A stretch of 64,000 nucleotides of DNA from Bacteroidaceae bacterium (GCA_017650105.1 JAGCFO010000003.1:1-64000), one strand, 5' to 3'. Positions 380 through 31,618 are shown, numbered from the stretch's first letter. Notes: generated by a model from the letters alone, not told the origin. Translations and numbers: made by a program.

Positions 380-481
380 AACGCGAAAGCACCTTATGCA
401 TCTTCACTTCCTCAGCGCGAGAGAACCTGCTGCGTCAGCGTTCCCTTAGCGCGAGAGGACCTTCTGCGTCAGCGTTCCTTC
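380..481 (-). repeat. Tandem degenerate copies of the pectate lyase 3' end
   Basis: The last ~34 bases of the downstream-reading (minus strand) pectate lyase gene, coding for GTLTQKVLSR and the stop, recur immediately after its stop codon as a close second copy (GTLTQQVLSR and TGA, shifted by one base). A third, more decayed copy extends to about 380. Only the first copy is in frame with the gene. Confidence 0.7.
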
Positions 482-2206
482 GGAGCTTGTGAGCGCTACG
501 AGGTAGATGCCTCGGGGAAGATGCAGGCCTGCCGAACCGCTGACGGAGAGGCGCTTGAAAGGGACTCCCGTGCAGCTATACACCGCCAGCTCGCTCCCCT
601 CGGGGGCGTTCTGCACGCTGAGCAGGTTGCCATTCATCTCCACATGCTGCGTCTGCACACCCTTCACAGCAGTGAAGTCGGGTACTTGTTTCTGCGCCTG
701 GGTGATCCCCTGCACCAGATAGTTGAGGTATAGCTCCAGATTGGTGTAGCCCTCGGAGTTCACGTCGTTGATGTCGCTCGGGTCGGTGGGGTCCATATCG
801 AGCCGATATTCGTAATAGTCGGGCACACAGTCGCCGTCGGTGTCTTTACGCAAGCGCTCGAGCATCGTTTCGTCGTAGGCGATTGCCACCCAGGGAGAAT
901 CCTCCCCATCGAGCAGGGCATCGTTCTGCGTGTTGATGATTCCCGGCTCTGTCCATCCTGCGGGATGCGACACGCTATACTCTATCCCGTCGTATACCCC
1001 ACTCCACGAATAGCCTTTAGTGTACGACTTGAAGGAGCCTTTTCGGTTTACCACATCGTCGATGATGGCAGCGTCGTATCGGTCGCGGTAGTTGCTGGCT
1101 CCGCTGTAGGCAAGCACTTGCTGGTAGGCATCCTCAGCGCTGAAGGTAGTAATCGTGCCCGGCTCGAAAGGCTCCGTCATGCGCGCTGCAGCCTTCTGCG
1201 CTGCTGTTGCCGACATCTGTGCTGCCACTCCCTTGGGCCAGTTGTCGGCGGAGACATCGGGATGACCTTCCACCACGTTGCCGTCGACGTAAGCCCTCAC
1301 GTCAGCATCGGCTGCGAAGATACGATAGTGCTGGCTCTTTCCCGAATAGTGCTGGTCGGTGGCAGGGCCGGGCTTGATATAGTTGTTCACCATATTGACT
1401 ACCATCTCTGAGCCTCCGTAGCAGCCCACTCCGCACCAGTTGTAGATGACGCAGTTGCGCATATCGGTGCTGTCTTTTAATCCCCGTTCCCCCATCGTGT
1501 ATCGACTGCCGAAGCGAGGAGTCCTGCTCACGGCGTGAGCTATGAGGTTGTGATGGAACGAGGCGTTGTGTCCGCCCCACACTCCTCCGTAGCAATGGGG
1601 CTTCCCGTCGGTGTAGAGGGTTTTGGGATGCACCGAGTAGTTGAGAGGTTGGCTTACGAGACACCACTGTACGGTTGTGCTATCGTTGGCATACGCTGTG
1701 AGACACTCATCCACACTCCAGCTGACGGAGCAATGATCGATAATGAAATGCCCGCAATCGAAGCCTCCGAAGCCGTCGACCTCCGTTCCGCAGACATCTC
1801 CCGGACGGATGCGCAGGAAACGCACAATCACATTCTCGGCCCTGATGCCGAAGCCGTAGTCGGCGATGCAGATACCCCCGGGGGAGGTTTGCCCTGCGAT
1901 GGTGAGGTTGCCGTTACGCACATAGAGGTCGGACTTCAGGTGAATGGTGCCCGCCACGTCGAAGATGATGGTGCGCGCGCCCTTCTGATTGACGGCATAG
2001 CGGAACGAGCCCTCCTTGCCGGTATCCTCGAGCGTCGTCACACGATAGACCTTGCCTCCCCTGCCGCCCGAGACGTACATGCCGAAACCTTCGGCTCCGG
2101 GGAAAGCGGGAGTTTGGGCTTCCGCTCTGTCAACAACGGATGTGAGCACCAGGAGCGCGATGCCCAGCGCGAGGGGGAGTTTTCTCTTAGGTTGCATTGT
2201 CTTCAT
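446..2206 (-). CDS. Secreted pectate lyase, polysaccharide lyase family 1 type
   Basis: A 586-residue secreted beta-helix enzyme expected to cleave polygalacturonate by beta-elimination. A signal peptide (about 1-31, ending AEAQ) is followed by FPGAEGFG, typical of the start of Bacteroidota pectate lyases. The stretch with IIDHCSVSWSVDE (about 153-166) and HHNLIAHAVSRTPR (about 218-231), including the candidate catalytic arginine, match PL1 signatures. The last ~45 residues (ELAVYSCTG, LPRGIYLVAL, KVLSR) resemble the C-terminal sorting tails of Bacteroidota secreted proteins. Two in-frame ATGs exist (2206 and 2197); both give a good signal peptide. A decayed paralogue lies at 25853-26156, and a GH28 gene at 60167 fits the same pectin theme. 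PL1 assignment is strong; exact substrate is inferred. Confidence 0.88.
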   Translation of the reverse strand: MKTMQPKRKLPLALGIALLVLTSVVDRAEAQTPAFPGAEGFGMYVSGGRGGKVYRVTTLEDTGKEGSFRYAVNQKGARTIIFDVAGTIHLKSDLYVRNGNLTIAGQTSPGGICIADYGFGIRAENVIVRFLRIRPGDVCGTEVDGFGGFDCGHFIIDHCSVSWSVDECLTAYANDSTTVQWCLVSQPLNYSVHPKTLYTDGKPHCYGGVWGGHNASFHHNLIAHAVSRTPRFGSRYTMGERGLKDSTDMRNCVIYNWCGVGCYGGSEMVVNMVNNYIKPGPATDQHYSGKSQHYRIFAADADVRAYVDGNVVEGHPDVSADNWPKGVAAQMSATAAQKAAARMTEPFEPGTITTFSAEDAYQQVLAYSGASNYRDRYDAAIIDDVVNRKGSFKSYTKGYSWSGVYDGIEYSVSHPAGWTEPGIINTQNDALLDGEDSPWVAIAYDETMLERLRKDTDGDCVPDYYEYRLDMDPTDPSDINDVNSEGYTNLELYLNYLVQGITQAQKQVPDFTAVKGVQTQHVEMNGNLLSVQNAPEGSELAVYSCTGVPFKRLSVSGSAGLHLPRGIYLVALTSSEGTLTQKVLSR

Positions 2207-2237
2207 CGGTAAAGGGGATTAAGGAAACGTATTTTTT

Positions 2238-20527: not shown

Positions 20528-23500
20528 ATGAAAAAACATCTACATTTTCTTCTCCCGCTTATTGCTTTCATGATATTAAGCAACCACCTGTCTGCGCAAC
20601 ACTTCTGGGATGGCACTACCGACAAAGTGATAACAGGAGGCGACGGGTCGCAGAAGCACCCATATCTCATATCTACTCCTGAACAGCTTGCCGGGTTGGC
20701 AGAACGTGTTAACATTGACCGGGAAGACTTTTCCGGAAAGCACTTCCGGCTTACCGAGGACATCTATCTCAACTCTTTTGCCGAGGGTGACGACACACTG
20801 ATGTGGACGCCTATCGGACAGATCTTCATGGATTGGAACACCACGGATACCTGCGCGTTCCGAGGCTCGTTCGACGGCGACGGACACACCATATATAACA
20901 TATACTACGCCGGCGGCATGGGCTGGGGTTCCGACTGGGACCCATATGCCTGGAATAGCGACATCACAACGCTTGACCTGAGCGTATTCTACAAAGCCCT
21001 GTTCGGCGTGGTGGATGGCGGAACTATCGAGAACGTTCGAATGGCAGGCGGCATGATGTCGGCCTTGTCACAGGCAATGCTGGCCGTGAGTGTGCAGAAG
21101 GGAAGCACCATACGCAACTGCCACGTAGAAGGAACCCTGCACAGCTCTGCCGAAGGCACAGAGATGGCAGGGCTTGTTTTTGACAACCACGGGTTGATAG
21201 AGAACTGTAGCGCTAATGTAACAACATGGGGATACCGCGCAGCTCCCATTGCAGCGAACAACCGGGCTGACGGCATCATCCGTAACTGCGTGGCCAAGGG
21301 CGAAGTGAACATCACTTGCCATGCCGTGGGCGCAGGGTTTGTATATAATAACGAAGGCCTGATTGAGCAATGTGAGAGCAGCACTAACGTCACGGCAAAG
21401 TTAGGCAAGAATGCAGGACGCGAGAATTCGCTCAGTGCCGCTGGGTTCACAGAAAAGAACTCGGGCATCATACGTGAATGCACGGCTCACGGAAAGCTCT
21501 CTACCGACAATACACCCATCTTTGCCTCTGATATAAGTGTGGTGGCGGGCTTCTGTATGACCAACACCGGCCGTATCGAGTCTTGTTATGCCGACGGCGA
21601 GTATAAGGACAACAGCGCGGGAGACTTCCCTGCCAAAATGGTTATGTTTGTTCGCGACAACGGGAGTACCTATGATGGCAAGTCAGGCATCATCATCAAT
21701 TGCTTCGCGGCCGGTAAGATGCTGCCCTATCTGCAACCGAAACTGACTACGTGGGAAAGTAACGCGTTCGTATTCCACGCCAATTTCTGTGGCGAAACAT
21801 TCGGAGAAGATATTGGGGCAGCACCTGGCATGGAGGTTAACTGCTATTGGCGCAGCGATGGCATACCCGTCACAGACAATGCGTTAGGAACTGATGGCAG
21901 CTGGTCTGCCCATGAGGCCACACTGTCGTACATGCAAAGCCAGGCTTTTGTGGATACGCTGAACCGCGTGGCCCATCTGATGGGCACCAGCCAGTGGGAA
22001 TATCGTCCCGGCCAACTGCCCCGAGCCACGGGCATCCGGACCAAGGACGTGCAGGCAACCCAATTCTTTGCCGGAGGCGATGGCACGAAAGACAACCCGT
22101 TCCTGATCAGCAACAAAGAGCAGCTGACCAATGTAGCGTGGCTTTCCAATCATGGCTACGACTTCCGAGGGGAAAATCTCCGTCAGACGGCCGACATCGT
22201 ACTGAATGCCCCACGCGAGCAATGGGCCGAGCAGATGCCCGCCGAATGGGAGTCCATCGGGGCAATCCAAAAGCATCCGCGCTGCAATGGCACGTGGAGC
22301 AACTACTTCTGCGGACACTACGACGGCGGCTTCCACGAGGTGAAAAGCATGTACATCGACAACCTGAACGCGCTGCAAGGTCTGTTCGGCAACATAAGCC
22401 GTCGCTTCGACTCGGTAATACGAAACCTGGGCATTACTGACGCCTACGTGCACGCATCGAGCGGAGGCATTCTAGCTGGATACATTGGAGGTGGTGCCCG
22501 CATCATCCAGTGCTACGTCTCAGGCGAAGCCCTGAGCGTGGGCGATGAGGGAGGCTACATTGGCTCATTTGCATCGGACAAAGGAGCGAATGTAATGATG
22601 CTCAACTGCATGAGTAGCGCTGAGGTGAACGGTGCAGGAGCTTTTTTGGGCAACGAATGGAGTTCCTACAACAGCCAGATAGTCAATGCGCTCTATACAG
22701 GCGCAAGCAATACTAAGGGGCCTGACTTGGCTTTCGAACAGCGGGAGAATTGCTTCATGGATGGTGATAAGTCGGCCGGAGGCACAGAAGAGCAGCGCAA
22801 GACCACCGAGTGGATGCAGTCGGCCGAGTGCGTGAACGTGCTCAACGATGCTGTGAGTCGCTGGAATGCCGCACATGCCGACGATGCCGACCTGCAACTC
22901 AATTATTGGACGATGCGTGAAGGCAACTATCCGAGGGTGGCAACCAATGAGGCTTACATGCCAAGAGTTACTATCACCTTTGCCAGCAACGGCGATACCA
23001 TATTGCTCAAGCGCTATATTGAGGCAGGAAGCAAGGTGGTCGTACCCCAACGTCCCACGAAAGAAGGACAGCTCTTCGCCGGCTGGTATAAGGACGAGCA
23101 GCTGACCCGATTCTTCGACTTCGAGACAGAACAGCCCGCGACGGACTTGACGCTCTATGCGAAATGGATCAAGAACGATATTTACGACTACGACCTCACA
23201 CCATTCAGTAACAAGTTTGCCACCACATTTCACATCAAGACAGCCGCCCAGATGCGTGGCTTTGCTGCGGTCGTAAATGGCATATACGATACCGACGGCA
23301 ATCAGATAGCTGCTCCGAACGAGCTCGAAGGGAAAAACGTAGTGCTGGACAACGATATTCTCTTGAACGACACAACCGACTGGAACTACTGGGGCCACAA
23401 TGCCTACGCCGTACCTTGGAAGCCTATCGGGCACCATGCAGAAAAGGTTAACCAGACCGCGACATTCTTCAAAGGAACGTTCGACGGGCAAGGACACATC

Positions 23501-25669
23501 ATATACGGTATGTACATCGAAATGGGAGCCGTGCCGATGAACACTGACGCCAGCATAACAGGCTATGGCCTGTTTGGCATAATAAACGGAAACAACACCA
23601 TCATCCGGAATGTAGGCATCAGGGCTTCTGTTATCGATATGCAATATCACGACGGACTTTATTATTATGGCGATACAGGAACTGGGGGCCGTGCTGGGTT
23701 GCTGGTGGACTACCTTGGAGGGGAGAACAACGCTGTAGAAAAGTGTTTTGCCGAAGGACGGATCATCTGCCCGAACAAGAAAAACTGGAACGGATACGTG
23801 GCCGGACTTATCGGAGAGGAGAGAGGAAAGACCAACAGTATTAATAACAGTTTCTCGCGCGTGATGATTGAAGACCCGCAACAACGAAGCTCGAAACGAC
23901 TTGCAGGTTTGGCTAATACTTCCTGCTCTGTAGAGAACTGCTATAGCGCCGACAACAGCTATTACGGGCTCGGCTTTGAGGACAACGAAGGCAACTCGTA
24001 CTACGACAAGGAACTGGTGACTGACAAATCGCGAAATGGCGGTAAGCTCACGGCCGAAATGAAGGCCAAAGCCACCTTTGTAGATTGGGACTTCGACGAG
24101 ACTTGGGGACGGAACGATGACATCAACGACGGCTACCCGTATCTCCGCCTGTTCTATCCCGACGCGCCGGCTGACAGCGATGATCCCATTGTCGTCACGG
24201 GCGTTCATCTGGAGGAAGCCGACCAGGCAGTCACCGTCTATGTTGGCGAGCCACTTCAACTGCACGCTCATGTGCTACCCGAGAACGCCGTCAACCAGAA
24301 CTTGAACTGGGAGATTACCACCATTCAATCCACTTCCCCCGCACTGACCATCGACCAAAACGGACTCCTCACCGGCCACAAGTCAAGCAACGGCTACTTC
24401 ACCGTGAAGGTAACCAGCGAATGGGGAGGATATTCGGCTTTATGCTATGTGACGGTCAAAGAAAGAGAACATACCTGGAGCGTAACCATCAACGAGTATA
24501 ATACAAGTCTGACGATCGGCGACTCGTATCAGTTCTCTGCCTCCGTCTATCCTGAAGATGCCGTCAACACCAACGTTATCTGGACATCGAGCAATGAGGA
24601 TATTCTTACAGTCACGCCCGACGGCTTGGCTACGGCGGTAGGAACAGGAACCGCATACCTAACGGTCAAGGCCGAAGACCAGACGAACGTGGAAACAGGA
24701 AAGGTACAGGCATCCAACCTTACAAAGACAACCAGAGCCATACAAGTGCTGCCGATTTATGTCACAAGCATCCAATGGCAGGAGGAACCCTTAACAGAGA
24801 TGATCGTCGGTGATGAACAACAACTTGCCGTCGTCCTTCAACCGGACAATGCGACATACAAAGGCGTCACGTGGAGCTCAACCAACACGAATGTACTTAC
24901 GGTTACAGAGAACGGCTTAGTTAAGGCCGTAGGCAAAGGAAATGCCTTCATCTATGCCATCGCGGATGTGAGCAAGAATACATCCGACGGCTTCAGATGC
25001 CAGCTGATGGTTCAAATAACGGCAAAATATGCAGAGCCCGAAAGCATAGTTATAAATGAAGGAAACCTCAAAATGGATATTGACGAGCAACAACAGCTTA
25101 CCGTAACCATCTTACCAGCAAATGCCGACCAAACGGTTAAATGGAAGAGCAGTAGCAGCCGTTATGTATCAGTCAGCAGCACAGGTCTGGTAACGATGCT
25201 CAGGGAGCCCACAAGTCCTGTAACGATAACAGCGACTGCAGCTAACGGACTTTCCGCGAGCACCACGGTCGAATACAAATATGCCGTTAAAAGCATAGAG
25301 ATAAACGAGGGCGATATCGAAATGGAATTGGGGCAAGAACGGCAACTCACCGTCACAATCCTTCCCGCCGAAGCGGACCAGTCAGTCAGATGGACAAGCA
25401 GCAATCCTTTTTATGTCAGAGTTAGCAGCACAGGTTTGGTGACGATGCTCAGGAAACCCGCAAGTCCTGTAACGATAACAGCGACAACTTCATCTTACGG
25501 GCTCACGGCAAGCATTACGGTCACGTTCAAAGAGCCCGATGCGATTAACGATGTCATATACGATATGCGGCAAGAAGAATGGTTTACTATCGACGGACGC
25601 AAACTGAACGAGCGACCTATGAAATCGGGAATCTATATTCGTAATGGGCAAAAAGTAGTAATCCGTTAG
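20528..25669 (+). CDS. Giant secreted modular protein: beta-helix-like modules, InlB-type repeat, Ig-like domains
   Basis: 1713 residues, probably a surface adhesin or glycan-binding protein. A signal peptide ends near SAQHF (24). Three GLUG/beta-helix-like modules follow, each opening with a (GGDG)..PYLIS..EQL phrase and holding an F-x-G-x-(F/Y)-D-G-x-x-H-x-I phrase (about 40-470, 510-790, 890-1200). One InlB B-repeat (about 813-880, ending DLTLYAKW) precedes the third module. About five Big_2-type Ig-like domains (about 1218-1675) come next; the last two are near-identical tandem copies. The end (WFTIDGRKLNERPMKSGIYIRNG) is a Bacteroidota C-terminal tail. Single-gene unit with a terminator at 25712. 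Binding partner unknown. Confidence 0.85.
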   Translation: MKKHLHFLLPLIAFMILSNHLSAQHFWDGTTDKVITGGDGSQKHPYLISTPEQLAGLAERVNIDREDFSGKHFRLTEDIYLNSFAEGDDTLMWTPIGQIFMDWNTTDTCAFRGSFDGDGHTIYNIYYAGGMGWGSDWDPYAWNSDITTLDLSVFYKALFGVVDGGTIENVRMAGGMMSALSQAMLAVSVQKGSTIRNCHVEGTLHSSAEGTEMAGLVFDNHGLIENCSANVTTWGYRAAPIAANNRADGIIRNCVAKGEVNITCHAVGAGFVYNNEGLIEQCESSTNVTAKLGKNAGRENSLSAAGFTEKNSGIIRECTAHGKLSTDNTPIFASDISVVAGFCMTNTGRIESCYADGEYKDNSAGDFPAKMVMFVRDNGSTYDGKSGIIINCFAAGKMLPYLQPKLTTWESNAFVFHANFCGETFGEDIGAAPGMEVNCYWRSDGIPVTDNALGTDGSWSAHEATLSYMQSQAFVDTLNRVAHLMGTSQWEYRPGQLPRATGIRTKDVQATQFFAGGDGTKDNPFLISNKEQLTNVAWLSNHGYDFRGENLRQTADIVLNAPREQWAEQMPAEWESIGAIQKHPRCNGTWSNYFCGHYDGGFHEVKSMYIDNLNALQGLFGNISRRFDSVIRNLGITDAYVHASSGGILAGYIGGGARIIQCYVSGEALSVGDEGGYIGSFASDKGANVMMLNCMSSAEVNGAGAFLGNEWSSYNSQIVNALYTGASNTKGPDLAFEQRENCFMDGDKSAGGTEEQRKTTEWMQSAECVNVLNDAVSRWNAAHADDADLQLNYWTMREGNYPRVATNEAYMPRVTITFASNGDTILLKRYIEAGSKVVVPQRPTKEGQLFAGWYKDEQLTRFFDFETEQPATDLTLYAKWIKNDIYDYDLTPFSNKFATTFHIKTAAQMRGFAAVVNGIYDTDGNQIAAPNELEGKNVVLDNDILLNDTTDWNYWGHNAYAVPWKPIGHHAEKVNQTATFFKGTFDGQGHIIYGMYIEMGAVPMNTDASITGYGLFGIINGNNTIIRNVGIRASVIDMQYHDGLYYYGDTGTGGRAGLLVDYLGGENNAVEKCFAEGRIICPNKKNWNGYVAGLIGEERGKTNSINNSFSRVMIEDPQQRSSKRLAGLANTSCSVENCYSADNSYYGLGFEDNEGNSYYDKELVTDKSRNGGKLTAEMKAKATFVDWDFDETWGRNDDINDGYPYLRLFYPDAPADSDDPIVVTGVHLEEADQAVTVYVGEPLQLHAHVLPENAVNQNLNWEITTIQSTSPALTIDQNGLLTGHKSSNGYFTVKVTSEWGGYSALCYVTVKEREHTWSVTINEYNTSLTIGDSYQFSASVYPEDAVNTNVIWTSSNEDILTVTPDGLATAVGTGTAYLTVKAEDQTNVETGKVQASNLTKTTRAIQVLPIYVTSIQWQEEPLTEMIVGDEQQLAVVLQPDNATYKGVTWSSTNTNVLTVTENGLVKAVGKGNAFIYAIADVSKNTSDGFRCQLMVQITAKYAEPESIVINEGNLKMDIDEQQQLTVTILPANADQTVKWKSSSSRYVSVSSTGLVTMLREPTSPVTITATAANGLSASTTVEYKYAVKSIEINEGDIEMELGQERQLTVTILPAEADQSVRWTSSNPFYVRVSSTGLVTMLRKPASPVTITATTSSYGLTASITVTFKEPDAINDVIYDMRQEEWFTIDGRKLNERPMKSGIYIRNGQKVVIR

Positions 25670-25852: not shown

Positions 25853-26156
25853 TCAGCGGGAAAAGACCTTCTGCGTTAAGGTTCCTCCGGTAGTGTTCAA
25901 GGCGACAAGGTAGATGCCGCGAGGAAGCTCCATGCCGGCGGTTCCGCTGACAGGCATTTGAGCAACAGGCACGCCCATGCAGTCGTACACCGCCAGCTCG
26001 CTTCCCTCGGAAACGCCCTGCACACTCAACCAGCTCCCATCCATACTGATTGTCTGAGCCTGCGGCTGACCGACAGACGTGAAATCGGGCACGCGCTTCT
26101 GCTGACTGGTGATGTCTTTCACCAGATAGTTGAGGTATAGTTCCAGATTGGTATAG
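25853..26156 (-). pseudogene. 3' remnant of a second pectate lyase
   Basis: About 100 codons matching the C-terminal end of the pectate lyase at 446-2206: YTNLELYLNYLV, then QKRVPDF, SELAVYDCMGVP, MELPRGIYLVAL and GTLTQKVFSR, ending in TGA at 25853-25855. Homology at the DNA level stops abruptly at about 26156, where the mobilization cassette begins. Six codons of cassette DNA precede it in an open frame, but no leader or catalytic part remains. The missing 5' part would have lain to the right, where the cassette now sits. Confidence 0.88.
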
Positions 26157-28045
26157 CATCGAAGAGAACATTTCATCTCCTGTACTGACCAAAGAAAGGA
26201 GCGAACTATGATTATGCTTGCAAAAGTCGTACCCTACAGAGGCAATGCCGTGAGGTACGCATTGGAGAAGGAGAAGGCAAAGTTGGTCAAGGTAAACCAC
26301 ATGCCTGAAGGTATCGATCCGACTGCCATCTGGTATATGATGAAGCATCACTGCCAGCTGCATCAGCAGGACAGAACAGTGGGGAGAAATCTGGAACGTC
26401 TCATGGTTCAGTTTGTAATCTCCCCCTCCAAGGAAGAGACAGCAAACTTCACCATGAAGGACTGGCGAAACCTTCAGGATGAAAGCCTGGAAACAATGGA
26501 CTCCCTCGGACTTATCCCCAAGGGCATGAAGAAGGAAGTGAAGACCAATTTCCGCAACTCAATGAACGTCGGTGGACTTCACTCCGATTCCAAGTCCGGT
26601 ACGCTGCACCTTCACATGGATTGTTGCCGTGTTGACCTCGAAGGCAACACCAACGATGTCCATGATATTCACAAGAGGGCAATGATGGCTGCGGAAATTA
26701 TCAACATGCGTCATGGTTGGAAGCAGCCAAAGGAGATACGTGACATGCGAAAGAAAGAGATAGCAGACTTTTGTGAATACACCCTTCGGAATATGCAGGA
26801 GTTTGACATTGACTTCTACTTCAAGATGCTTCGTATGAAAGGCTATGAGGTTACACCTCGCTATGACAAGAGCAAGAAACTTGTCGGCTATACCATCTGC
26901 AAGAATGCATCTGTATTCAAGGCTTCCGAGATTGGTCGGAGATTCATGGTATCATAGTTTGAAGCCACATGGAAGAAGTTCCATCCGAAACCTGCCCTGG
27001 TCATGGTGAAGCCAGCTTCACCGACTGTTATACCAAGCACCCGTCCGACTCGCCCAGTAACTCCAAAGTCGACATTTACCCAGACCAAAGTTCAACCGAG
27101 TGTTCAGCCCAAGCCTGTGCCATCCTTCACCACATTCAACATCGATACACCTAATGGCACAAAGGTTATTGAGATTCCAAATTCAATCAAGGACATTTTC
27201 CTCAATGAGGCTCAGGTTCCAGATGGCAATGATACTGCCACTGTCGAGAACGTTGCCCATACTGCAATGCTTCTCTTTGTTGGCTACATTGATGCCGCAA
27301 CATCCATGTCCGAATCATGTGGAGGTGGTGGCGGTTCTACACCTGAATTAGGTTGGGGCAAGAAAGATGACGAAGATGAACGCGCCTATGCCCGTCGCTG
27401 CCTATTGATGGCACATTCCATGTACAAACCAAAAACAGTTAAACGCGGTTTCCACCGTTAAAACAATCACATATAACTATGATTAGAAAAAGTAAGAACA
27501 ACGAGGACAAGCCCGATTTCAAGGAAATGTGGAGCGAAGTCAACAAGAATATTCAGGAACAGGATGCCGAACAAGACATCATCAGTCGTGTTCCTGAACT
27601 GAAGGAATTGAGTGGCAACATCGACAAGGCTACCAATTATTGTGTGAATGCCACGCTTCAATGTGAGTCGGTAATCCGGCAGTATCAACGAGCCGAGGAG
27701 AAACTGGATAATGCCGTTGATACCATCAGTGGCAAGGTTGACACCATCAACGGGAATATTGACCAAGTCATGGAAGATGCGCCAAAAAAGTTGAAGGTGT
27801 CGGTAAATGTCTCTGATGCTGACTGGCAGAAGATGCAAGAACTCAATGGCCAATGGATGGAGCAAGAGAGACAGATGCTTGCCGACCATAACCAACAGCA
27901 GGAAACGATTTGGCAGAAGCATAGTAGCAGACTCTCTGAAATCGTTAAGAACAATGAGGGTGTATGGATTTCAACAAGAGTCTTCTACATTGTTGGTTCC
28001 CTTTCCCTCCTGTCAATCATAACGATTGTAATGGAGATTGCTTTC
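26157..28045 (+). mobile_element. Mobilization cassette (relaxase plus coiled-coil membrane protein) inserted between two truncated genes
   Basis: A segment of about 1.9 kb with mobilization genes. Its left edge is where pectate lyase homology ends (about 26156), and its right edge is where BspA-type repeats begin (28030-28052). No integrase, inverted repeats or target duplication is visible, so it looks like the scar of an insertion-deletion or recombination rather than an intact element. Edges are inferred from where flanking homology stops. Confidence 0.65.
26208..27461 (+). pseudogene. Relaxase / mobilization protein with in-frame amber stop
   Basis: DNA-nicking protein for conjugal mobilization. 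The frame runs 417 codons but is broken by TAG at 26955-26957, between GRRFMVS and FEATWKKFHPKP, with both sides in the same frame. The N-terminal part has the usual start (LAKVVPYRGNAVRYALEKEK) and a histidine-rich motif HLHMDCCRVD (about 142-151), matching relaxase motif III. The second part is proline-rich and ends with a glycine run and KTVKRGFHR. A CAG or AAG codon changed to TAG is the simplest explanation. Alternatively it is now a shortened 249-residue protein. The upstream region 26157-26207 belongs to the cassette. Confidence 0.75.
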
Positions 28046-28782
28046 TATGTGTGTTCTTCTCTTTCAAATATCACTATTCCCACGAATGTGACTAGCATTG
28101 CGGAAACAGCCTTTACTGGCTGCTCTAGGCTAAAAAAAATTATACTTAACAGCGAAATCATTGTCGCAAAGAATTACAACATTAAAAGCAATCTGAAAAA
28201 AATCTTTGGCGAACAAGTAGAAAAATATATACTTGGTGAAAATATCAAAAGCATTGGAGATAATGTTTTCAATGGTTGTAGCAATCTTACCAGCATGACA
28301 ATCTCTGAAAACGTCACAAGAATTGGGAGTAACGTTTTTGAAAACTGCATCAATTTGTCAAATATTATTTTACCCCAAAGCGTTAAAAGCATCGGTTTTT
28401 CCCTCTTTAAAGGTTGTGTTAGTCTTAGTAGTTTTTCTTTTCCGGAAAACATAACTAGTATTGAAGATAGCACATTTTTTGGGTGCAAGAGTCTTTCAAG
28501 TATCTCCATTCCAAATAATATCACTAGTATCGGAGCATCATCCTTTGAGAATTGTTATAGTTTAGCAACTATTATAGCTCCCCAAAGAGTCACTAGTATT
28601 GGAGATAAAGCCTTCTTTAATTGCGAGAGTCTTATTAGTTTTCTATTGCCTGACAGTATTATGATTATCGGTAATGATGTTTTTTGTGGTTGCAAAAGCC
28701 TTGCAAGCATAACTATTCCAAAGAATATCATTAAAATCGAAGAAAGTGCTTTTTCTGGCTGCTCTAACTTAACATCTGTAAC
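27479..28782 (+). pseudogene. Chimeric gene, 5' part: mobilization coiled-coil protein fused to BspA-type leucine-rich repeats
   Basis: Starts 17 bases after the relaxase. Residues 1-165 are acidic and coiled-coil-like (KLDNAVDTISGKVDTINGNID) and a membrane helix spans about 168-188; this resembles the accessory membrane proteins of mob operons. From Cys192 the protein becomes BspA-like leucine-rich repeats of about 23 residues (CSSLSNITIPTNVTSI, NGCSNLTSMTISENVTRI), about ten of them, beginning in the middle of a repeat. The frame enters an IS element at 28783 and stops at 28807. A fusion of a mobilization gene with the body of a surface protein is not a known family layout and is inferred to result from the cassette insertion. 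Confidence 0.8.
28774..28782 (+). repeat. 9-bp target site duplication, left copy
   Basis: ATCTGTAAC, repeated exactly at 30109-30117, directly abutting the outer ends of the IS inverted repeats. Confidence 0.85.
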
Positions 28783-30108
28783 CACTACTGTCCCGTTAAG
28801 ATTTTAGCTTTCGGAATAAATTGAGTTGACCATCATCCTTTGGGACGTTATTAATTGGTTTGTTAAACAATTCGGGTATGGGCATCTTCTCAAACAACAT
28901 AGTACCTATGGTCTGGGAAATCATATACAGTGATGGTTCCTCGATATGCATGCGCTTCTTAGCCATAGCCAGTAGCAGGAATGCACAGACCGCTATCCAG
29001 ATTTGTGTATAGACAGCATTCTCTGAGGTTCCATGAAACGACTTGATATGCAGATGTTGCTTTATCCATTAGAAGAAGAGTTCCACGTTCCATCGTTCCC
29101 TATAGAGTTCAGCGATGGTAAGGGCTTCGTATCCCAAATGGTTGGTGATGAAACGATAGACATTTCCCGTGGCAAAGTCTTCGTAGACTACCATGCGGAA
29201 TTCCTTCGGGTACTTCTGCTTGGAGTTCTCCTTAGTAAGTCTGACAATCTCATCGCTGATAACACCAGTCTGCTTATCAACAGGCATGGACCTGACAACC
29301 TCATATTGCATGTTATCCTTCGCTCTCGTAACAAAGAATGCGCCATTCTTGTGGATGATGTTAAAGAGCCTGCTGAAGTCCACATACCCTTTGTCTATCA
29401 GATAGATAGCACCCATCTCGACACAGATTCCATCCAAAGCGTTAACATCGTGCACCGATGCTTTGGTCAAAAGCACGAATACAGGGAGATTGCCTCTCAG
29501 GTCAAGCTGGGTATGCAGTTTAATGCCACCCTTCTTCTTCCTGAATTTTGCCCAAGGACAGAGTTTGAGACAGAGGCTGATGGTGCTGCTGTCGAAGGCA
29601 TAGACCATGTTATCAATGTCGAGCCTGAAACTGTCCTTTGCATAGAGCGGACGAACCTTCTTGATAAGAACTTGTCCCAATTCCGCATAGATGCGCCAAT
29701 CTCTGAGTTCATTTGCTTTGGCCAGCGTGTTGTGAGGAACGGCATAGCTAATACCACAATGATAGAGCTTGTGGGTAACAGCCAACGCGTTCAGGCTTGC
29801 CTCTATATCGCGCAGACTATTCTTATCAGCATATTGAGCCAGGCACATGACCAGCAACTGGTCATAGCAGGTGAGGTTTCTCACCCTGTAATTGCCTCTG
29901 TATTTGGCAACAATATCGTTGAATTCTCTACGAGGTACGAACTGCATGATCTGTGCGAATACTATCTTTCCGAAATTCATGTAACACGCTTCTTTGATGA
30001 CAACTGCAAAGGTAGTCAATTCAAATCGTGTACAAGAATAATCGAATCTAAATCATTGTTTTTTAATAACTTGTATTAAAATTATCTCGTTTTAACGGGA
30101 CACTAATG
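28783..30108. mobile_element. IS4-type insertion sequence, 1326 bp
   Basis: Ends are CACTACTGTCCCGTTAA (28783-28799) and, as its complement, CATTAGTGTCCCGTTAA at 30108-30092: a 17-bp inverted repeat with 15 identities. It is flanked by the 9-bp duplication ATCTGTAAC. It carries one transposase gene, disabled by a stop codon. If the element and one 9-bp copy are removed, the surrounding gene joins in frame. Confidence 0.92.
28796..30019 (-). pseudogene. IS4-family transposase (DUF4372 N-terminal domain) with a premature stop
   Basis: DDE-type transposase. The open part, 30019 to 29069, gives 316 residues. FGKIVFAQIMQFVPRREF opens the N-terminal DUF4372-type domain. The first D is in YAFDSSTIS and the second in YLIDKGYVDF. 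The C-terminal signature reads YRERWNVELFF, then TAA at 29069-29071 where an AAA (Lys) is expected, then WIKQHLHIKSFHG in the same frame, and on to a stop at 28796. The catalytic Glu of YRExxxxE is kept but the last ~90 residues are cut off. An in-frame ATG at 29980 (MNFGKIVF) is an alternative start. Probably inactive. Confidence 0.88.
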
Positions 30109-30117
30109 ATCTGTAAC
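30109..30117 (+). repeat. 9-bp target site duplication, right copy
   Basis: ATCTGTAAC, identical to 28774-28782, next to the right end of the IS. Confidence 0.85.
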
Positions 30118-31618
30118 AATAAATAGTAACGCAATTATTTCAACAGGAAACTTAGAAAAACTCTTTGGCAGGCAAGTTGAAAGGTATATTATAGGAGAGA
30201 GTGTGACAAAAATCCCAGGTGACGCATTTCTTAACTGTACATATTTACAATCCATCTACATTCCTAGTGATTTAAGGGATTTTGGATGGGATGCTTTTCC
30301 ATCAAGCATTAGACTATATACTAAACGAGGTTCTAAGTCATTATTGGCGTTATGGAAAGCAGGTTACATATCGCCTTACGAAACAGGAACAAACAATATT
30401 TTGTTGCCTACGGAAATAAATGTCATAAAAACAACACAAATGACAATAACAATCGGCATAAAGAATTATTATGACGATTATACTTACACCCTGAACAACA
30501 ATCCTATCCGACAGGAAAAAGTGACGATTCATGATTATCCTGAACACTCAGGAGAACTAGCACTGAAAATATCGAAAGACGATATGGAGTACATCACAGG
30601 TACTCTTTATACTACACAGAAAATCAGTCCAACAGTAACACTTATAACAGGAACAGCTTCATCGATATCTGCTTTAGCTTCTTACATTGAAGGTGATGCA
30701 AACGTTACATCAGAACGATTAATCTTCAATGGAAAAGAGGTTAATGGTTCCACTTTTTATAGAAACGGGCTGAGACCTAACTACAACTATATAGCAGAAT
30801 ATACCATAACAGTAGATAACCATTATTCATATACCAAGAAAGTAAATTTGAGGACTGAAGCATTGAATTTCGTCAATGCTGCTCCCAAAGTGATTTCGGA
30901 AGGGAACGTCATCATCTCCTCCACATCGAACCTTGATGAGGCTGAGACAGACGTGGGTTTTGAATGGAGACGTACCGACTGGACAAACGACTTTCAGTCG
31001 AACATAGCGGGAGCCTACCTCTTTGAAGGGACACAGGAGGGATACATCCGCAACATGAACACAAACTATTTGTGGAAGTTCCGCCCATACTACCGCTCGG
31101 CTGACGGCGCTTACTTCTACGGCTCTTGGCTCGGTATAGACCCCACGAATACAAGCTATTTTGAGCCAACGGTCCACACCTATTCCTCTATTACGGTAAA
31201 AGGAAATTCCGCTCAAATTAAGGGCTATGTGATGCGTGGCTCTGATGATATCACACAACAAGGATTCATATACTGGAAAGGCTCAACTCGTGCTGGAGGA
31301 AACGATGTTCCCGAAACAGCAACAATGATAGAAGCTAAAGGCACAGTTATGAACGCGAACCTTAGAGAGCTTGACTACGAAACAACCTATCATTATGTGG
31401 CATTTGTGAAGACAGCAGAGGGAGAGACATATTATGGAGAAGAGAAGTCATTCACTACGGAAATTGACACGGGTATGGGACTTATAGAAGATCCTGAGTC
31501 TGATGTTAAAGAAGAGGGTGTCTACGATCTTAGCGGAAGGCGTATTAATAATATGCAAGAAGGCATCTACATCATTCGTTACACTGATGGCAGCAGCCGA
31601 AAGGTGTTCATAAACTGA
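30118..31618 (+). pseudogene. Chimeric BspA-like gene, 3' part
   Basis: Continuation of the gene broken by the IS. Joining 28782 to 30118 reads LTSV-TINSNAIISTGN with no shift, and the last repeats (FGRQVERYIIGESVTKI) match the earlier phrase FGEQVEKYILGENIKSI. After the repeats come two fibronectin-like domains (about 30840-31480) and a short Bacteroidota C-terminal tail (VYDLSGRRINNMQEGIYIIRY). A GTG at 30203 could start an orphan protein of 471 residues, but it would lack a signal peptide. Followed by a clear terminator. Confidence 0.85.

Follow-up and report, generated by a model that had tools for sequence, protein, structure and literature searches.

A mobilization segment fused to BspA-type LRR repeats, the probable remnant of an integrative and mobilizable element

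Gene content of the locus

The window, i.e. the whole 64,000-nucleotide stretch of DNA that was analysed, comprises positions 1-64000 of contig C36 (64,973 bp) in a metagenome-like assembly of 46 contigs that is 91.5% complete. Between 25.8 and 31.7 kb lie, in this order, a pectate lyase 3' remnant, a mobilization (mob) segment, LRR_5 repeats, an IS4-family insertion sequence (IS) and the rest of a BspA-type gene. The features are listed below (a slash within a sequence marks a junction or element end; labels in L denote loci and labels in G genomes).

25853-26157, minus strand: pectate lyase 3' end, last ~100 aa (linker and C-terminal sorting-tail-like end); 5' five-sixths gone, from homologue alignments
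26147-26157, no strand: left junction ATTGGTATAGC, common to the mbpA 3' end and the opposite-strand pectate lyase; homologues of both parents aligned across it
26149-26211, plus strand: last 20 codons and stop of mbpA (ribbon-helix-helix / NikA-like mobilization gene), reading WYSIEENISSPVLTKERSEL and stop, as in L105 and L110
26208-27461, plus strand: mbpB, relaxase-type mobilization gene with an in-frame TAG at 26955-26957; 94% aa to L105, relatives' copies intact
27479-28051, plus strand: mbpC-like third mobilization gene (coiled coil and C-terminal TM); last ~6 codons (YFHWIQ-stop) replaced by LRR
28040-28054, plus strand: right junction GCTTTC-TATGTG/TGT; mbpC through 28051, LRR Cys codon from 28052
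28052-28782, plus strand: BspA-type gene, first remaining part, LRR_5 repeats in frame with mbpC; PF13306 LRR_5, E 1.2e-60
28774-28782, plus strand: 9-bp target-site duplication ATCTGTAAC, left copy, identical to the right copy
28783-30108, minus strand: IS4-family insertion sequence; transposase ORF 29069-30019, transpos_IS4_1 match, terminal inverted repeats
30109-30117, plus strand: 9-bp target-site duplication ATCTGTAAC, right copy, identical to the left copy
30118-31618, plus strand: BspA-type gene, last LRR, C-terminal domains and C-terminal tail; 47-50% to G341, G032, G403 and G059, full length

The minus-strand pectate lyase remnant (25856-26157) aligns at 66% over 100 aa with residues 491-590 of an intact paralogue in the same window (449-2218). 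That paralogue is syntenic with the only pectate lyase homologue of the closest relative, G015, to which the remnant aligns at 60%. An earlier, sequence-only reading had described the remnant as a 3' end and nothing else, and so it is: the last 100 of ~590 aa align, and pectate lyase similarity ends upstream of them. About 83% of the protein is lost, considerably more than the 5' half that had been assumed. A type IX-secreted tail (PF18962) scores 12.5 bits on the remnant, below the gathering score of 27 bits. When the genome itself was searched by query, no orphan pectate lyase 5' fragment was found elsewhere, only distant pectate lyases (39-47%). Immediately to the left of the remnant, the window encodes a 1713-aa repeat surface protein (20528-25669).

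The mob segment of 1.9 kb consists of the mbpA tail, mbpB with its in-frame TAG and mbpC without its final few codons. As had been proposed, it fills the space between the two truncated genes, with mob homology extending from 26147 to 28055. This interval is 70-88% identical at the DNA level to the mob operons of numerous Prevotellaceae genomes and MAGs, most of them from the rumen; in these relatives mbpA, mbpB and mbpC are intact. The amino acid match of mbpB is 94% to L105 over residues 1-249, and 91-94% across the element relatives. The mbpA family is PF21983 (from the L106 copy), mbpB stays below the cut-off of the MbpB equivalog (NCBIfam NF041420; E 7.8e-18, 65 against 400 bits), and the third gene, without a family match, is named mbpC by position only. 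A query search found no further copy of the mob segment in its own genome. The relaxase/mobilization genes of the window are present in decayed form (mbpA tail, stopped mbpB, mbpC) and no site-specific integrase gene lies between the junctions, while the relatives have one. What remains is no working integrative and mobilizable element (IME) but a remnant, and it cannot mobilize itself. In many genomes the last 70 mbpC codons (TM end, YFHWIQ-stop) are found alone or on unrelated N-termini (L065-L074 and similar loci).

The BspA-type gene encodes an LRR_5 protein (PF13306; 203 bits against a gathering score of 27.7). From 28052 onward it has no start of its own, as the sequence-only reading had noticed, but it is not the single piece described there, being split by the IS at 28783-30108. 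The gene keeps ~740 aa, compared with 816-955 aa in three of the four relatives considered (the fourth ORF has no clear start); probably 10-25% of BspA is missing, again not a half. The IS is like members of the IS4 family in its transposase (NCBIfam transpos_IS4_1, NF033592; 203 bits against a cut-off of 115), in the 9-bp duplication on both sides and in its terminal inverted repeats (CAyTAsTGTCCCGTTAA). It is unlike them in that the copy in the window ends early: the transposase ORF (29069-30019, minus strand) stops prematurely and is probably frameshifted. A query search found no further copies in the genome, and the insertion of this single copy is a separate event within the BspA remainder.

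Elements inserted at an LRR cysteine codon

In relatives, the mob module belongs to a family of elements of 16-27 kb that insert into BspA genes, which speaks against the earlier proposal that it arrived as a 1.9 kb replacement. In intact elements the left end encodes an excisionase and a tyrosine recombinase; mbpA-mbpB-mbpC come next, and cargo after them. The families recognized in the left module are PF00589 (3.4e-22), PF13102 and PF17293 for the tyrosine recombinase and TIGR01764 for the excise domain. The insertion site is a conserved Cys codon (TGT/TGC) of an LRR_5 repeat, with the BspA 5' arm to the left and the 3' arm to the right. For the mob genes of the window, the element left end (TGTATTTAGAGACCTCTAAACA) is preceded directly by a BspA-type 5' part at 9/9 loci where it is visible: eight start at the LRR Cys codon and the one at L106 falls within an LRR gene's degenerate end.

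The left-end pattern TGTATTTAGAGNCCTCTAAACA was found at 66 sites in 48 of 399 family genomes, and the reversed control at 0. The LRR repeat is cut exactly before the Cys codon in 59 of the 68 distinct left flanks, of which 58 were called by script and one by eye. Inspection by eye also shows an LRR slightly out of register in at least three further flanks; the bases upstream of the left ends fit GCnTTy-N6. At 11 distinct right ends (..TTTGCAAATACTAyGG/TGy) an LRR 3' arm begins with the Cys codon. By itself the right-end pattern discriminates poorly, with 20 hits and 8 for the control, and the evidence here is the LRR arm exactly 17 bases in. Four elements are complete, namely those of G277 (16.5 kb), G170 (27.0 kb), G349 (22.6 kb) and G202 (18.5 kb), and in all four the joined flanks give one continuous LRR gene across the empty site. 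Two genomes of the same genus as the window carry such ends, G016 both types and G003 the left one. Mob modules with other integrases (L117, L126, L128, L132) sit elsewhere, so that an LRR upstream of related mob genes is not universal.

In the G349 element (L110) the window's mob trio lies at 6.2-8.1 kb and is followed by 14 kb of cargo, therefore mbpC does not adjoin the right end in intact elements. The LRR 3' arm is missing beside the L105, L106, L110 and L116 loci; for L110 it was found further along the contig, and the other three loci end too soon to show right flanks. The end of mbpC as the natural right end (attR) of the element was considered and rejected: in the relatives mbpC closes with YFHWIQ-stop and cargo comes after it, and the true right end has a sequence of its own and lies as much as 14 kb further on.

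Several other features of the family were observed. The LRR-inserted 27 kb element of G170 (C43, L280/L281, ~56.5-83.6 kb) carries Gabija (GajA/GajB), type III restriction-modification, caspase-like and PDC-S02 genes, and the 16.5 kb element of G277 (C1, L230) carries tet(Q), which scores above its NCBIfam cut-off, together with a gene for a sigma-54-type regulator that resembles rteB. At L116 (1294-1931) and in G273 (C53, L168/L197), a right end is followed by a short LRR and then by the left end of another element, and two elements appear to share the same LRR gene. The right-end-like sequences at L262, L268 and L270 keep the conserved upstream stretch with no LRR after it; other targets or decayed arms are possible. 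About 20 MAG contigs (L237-L256) stop 75-530 bp inside an element left end, and LRR-targeting elements probably break Prevotella assemblies.

Origin of the two junctions

Mob genes of the LRR-targeting family directly adjoin a BspA 3' arm in the window, and the LRR part starts at the attachment codon of the family. We consider it probable, on this sequence evidence, that the segment is the remnant of an LRR-inserted IME, and the mob genes would lie beside the 3' arm because such elements insert inside BspA repeats. An ancestral IME would have inserted into this BspA gene at the LRR Cys codon; we infer this step from the mob genes and their position, since pattern scans found neither a canonical left nor a canonical right family end in the genome. 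Three steps could have followed. (a) The cargo and the right end would have been lost when recombination, likely by the integrase, joined the mbpC 3' end to the LRR Cys codon. (b) A second deletion, from the pectate lyase tail to the mbpA end over 6-11 bp of common sequence, would have taken the left half of the element, the BspA 5' arm and the 5' part of the pectate lyase. (c) The IS would have entered the remaining BspA repeats, and mbpB would have gained its stop. The sequence-only reading had invoked one insertion-deletion; the left deletion alone could indeed remove both gene starts, but an insertion and two deletions are needed to account for the locus.

That reading had also placed the junctions at 26156 and 28040, and both are found elsewhere. 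On the right, mbpC runs in frame into the LRR repeats between 28051 and 28052, where the window reads AFYV/CSSLSNITIP and mbpC of the relatives ends AFYVYFHWIQ-stop. The codon before the LRR Cys is Val in 1/577 repeats and GTG in 0/577; the GTG thus comes from mbpC and the crossover falls exactly at /TGT, in the same Cys codon register as the natural element ends. Additionally, GCnTTy-N6-T occurs a single time on the plus strand of the cassette, at this junction. Given the single motif, the GTG from mbpC and the crossover position shared with natural ends, the right deletion was likely made by the element's own integrase, in an aberrant reaction at an mbpC half-site. Provided that the segment is an LRR-inserted IME remnant, we lean towards the integrase over slippage for this junction. 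Against the integrase step, the mbpC-LRR fusion has no second case, being unique among 379 genomes. The first ORF of the fusion comprises ~190 aa of mobilization protein and then 251 residues (LRR repeats, the last few IS-derived). As it lacks its own signal peptide and is interrupted by the IS, a role at the surface seems unlikely.

On the left, at 26147-26157, the mbpA end and the pectate lyase share 6 bp with certainty, and 11 if the parent used TAT; homologous pectate lyases match 6/11 bases of ATTGGTATAGC uninterrupted and then differ at the next base. At this shared stretch the left deletion would have brought the mbpA end and the pectate lyase tail together. Since the two junctions differ in kind, it appears to be separate from the right event.

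A variant of this scheme, differing in step (a) only, holds that both junctions are short-homology accidents, the right one arising when GCTTTCTATG of mbpC slipped onto an AFY-type LRR, with no integrase involved. AFY is a common LRR motif (105/426 repeats), so an accident of this type is possible; mbpC ends GAGATTGCTTTCTATG, LRR repeats with 14/16 matches to it exist, and the left junction is already of the short-homology kind. However, the mbpC sequence is kept two bases past the possible match, exactly to the Cys codon, and closes with the GTG that none of the 577 repeats has at that place. We regard slippage at the right junction as conceivable but rather unlikely.

We find it improbable that a single insertion-deletion removed both starts of a divergent pectate lyase and BspA pair and left the mob fragment in between. 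The orientations of the genes fit such an event, both 5' ends are gone and the mob segment lies exactly between them; a shared divergent promoter region, allowed by these orientations, would be a guess. Nevertheless, elements with these mob genes insert inside BspA repeats, and the contact of the genes with BspA has a cause of its own; the right junction is in the register of the attachment codon while the left one is a short shared sequence; and the divergent pair expected in relatives was found in none of those examined, the 17 homologue regions holding one gene or the other and never both. A whole-region DNA search of the relatives gave no uninterrupted locus. Synteny with the radA and metH flanks gave no empty site within the genus, as this interval is different in every relative or genus genome examined, and in G015 the radA-side (left) and metH-side (right) flanks lie on separate contigs and have other neighbours. 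Finally, the joining of pieces of different genomes during assembly or binning is very unlikely: the assembly is fragmented (46 contigs, 91.5% complete) and many assemblies seem to break up at such elements, 50-500 bp in from the left end, but neither junction has a k-mer-length overlap (the 6-11 bp shared on the left are too short for an assembler), the frame is intact across the right junction and the IS has a clean target-site duplication.

Implications and comparison with known systems

Many known IMEs use tRNA or other 3' ends and thereby spare the host. An element family at a fixed codon in repeat units has many targets per genome, and a surface gene is cut at each insertion. The family ties surface-protein variation to mobile cargo such as Tet(Q) (G277) or Gabija and type III restriction (G170), and may account for broken BspA genes and for contigs that break off in Prevotella MAGs. 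A tentative and rather speculative view is that the BspA-type LRR genes of Prevotellaceae might act as a multi-copy docking array for mobile elements with resistance or defence cargo. Their insertion would be at a single repeat codon, and now and then such codons would recombine with genes of the elements or with one another, so that surface proteins are truncated, fused or reshuffled; the mbpC-LRR fusion in the window would be an illustration of this. With the element family in view, what looked like a one-off replacement can be read as a history of insertion followed by decay.

The elements described here resemble the Bacteroidetes IMEs NBU1, Tn4555 and Tn4399 (reviewed in PMC5704250) and the MTnPi elements of Prevotella intermedia (PMC4755523). 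Like these, they have a tyrosine integrase and an excisionase at one end, relaxase genes and variable cargo including resistance, and conjugation machinery is unseen in the element parts read. They differ in their target, an internal LRR_5 codon in multi-copy BspA-type coding sequences that are cut in two. The passages of these two papers that were searched describe no LRR target, and no description of one for Bacteroidetes IMEs was found in the papers that were searched. The mbpA-mbpB-mbpC region is like that of the NCBIfam families MbpA (NF041418) and MbpB (NF041420) in gene order and in the significant similarity of the first two genes; the scores are far below the curated cut-offs, which makes it a relative and not a member.

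CTnDOT-type integration involves a non-homologous coupling sequence between short core sites. Unlike CTnDOT, the elements studied here have as their target, known from sequence alone, a codon motif (GCnTTy-N6-TGy) in LRR repeats. Like CTnDOT, their ends carry inverted AAATAC and GTATTT around ~7 bp, and the bases adjacent to the crossover differ between element and target.
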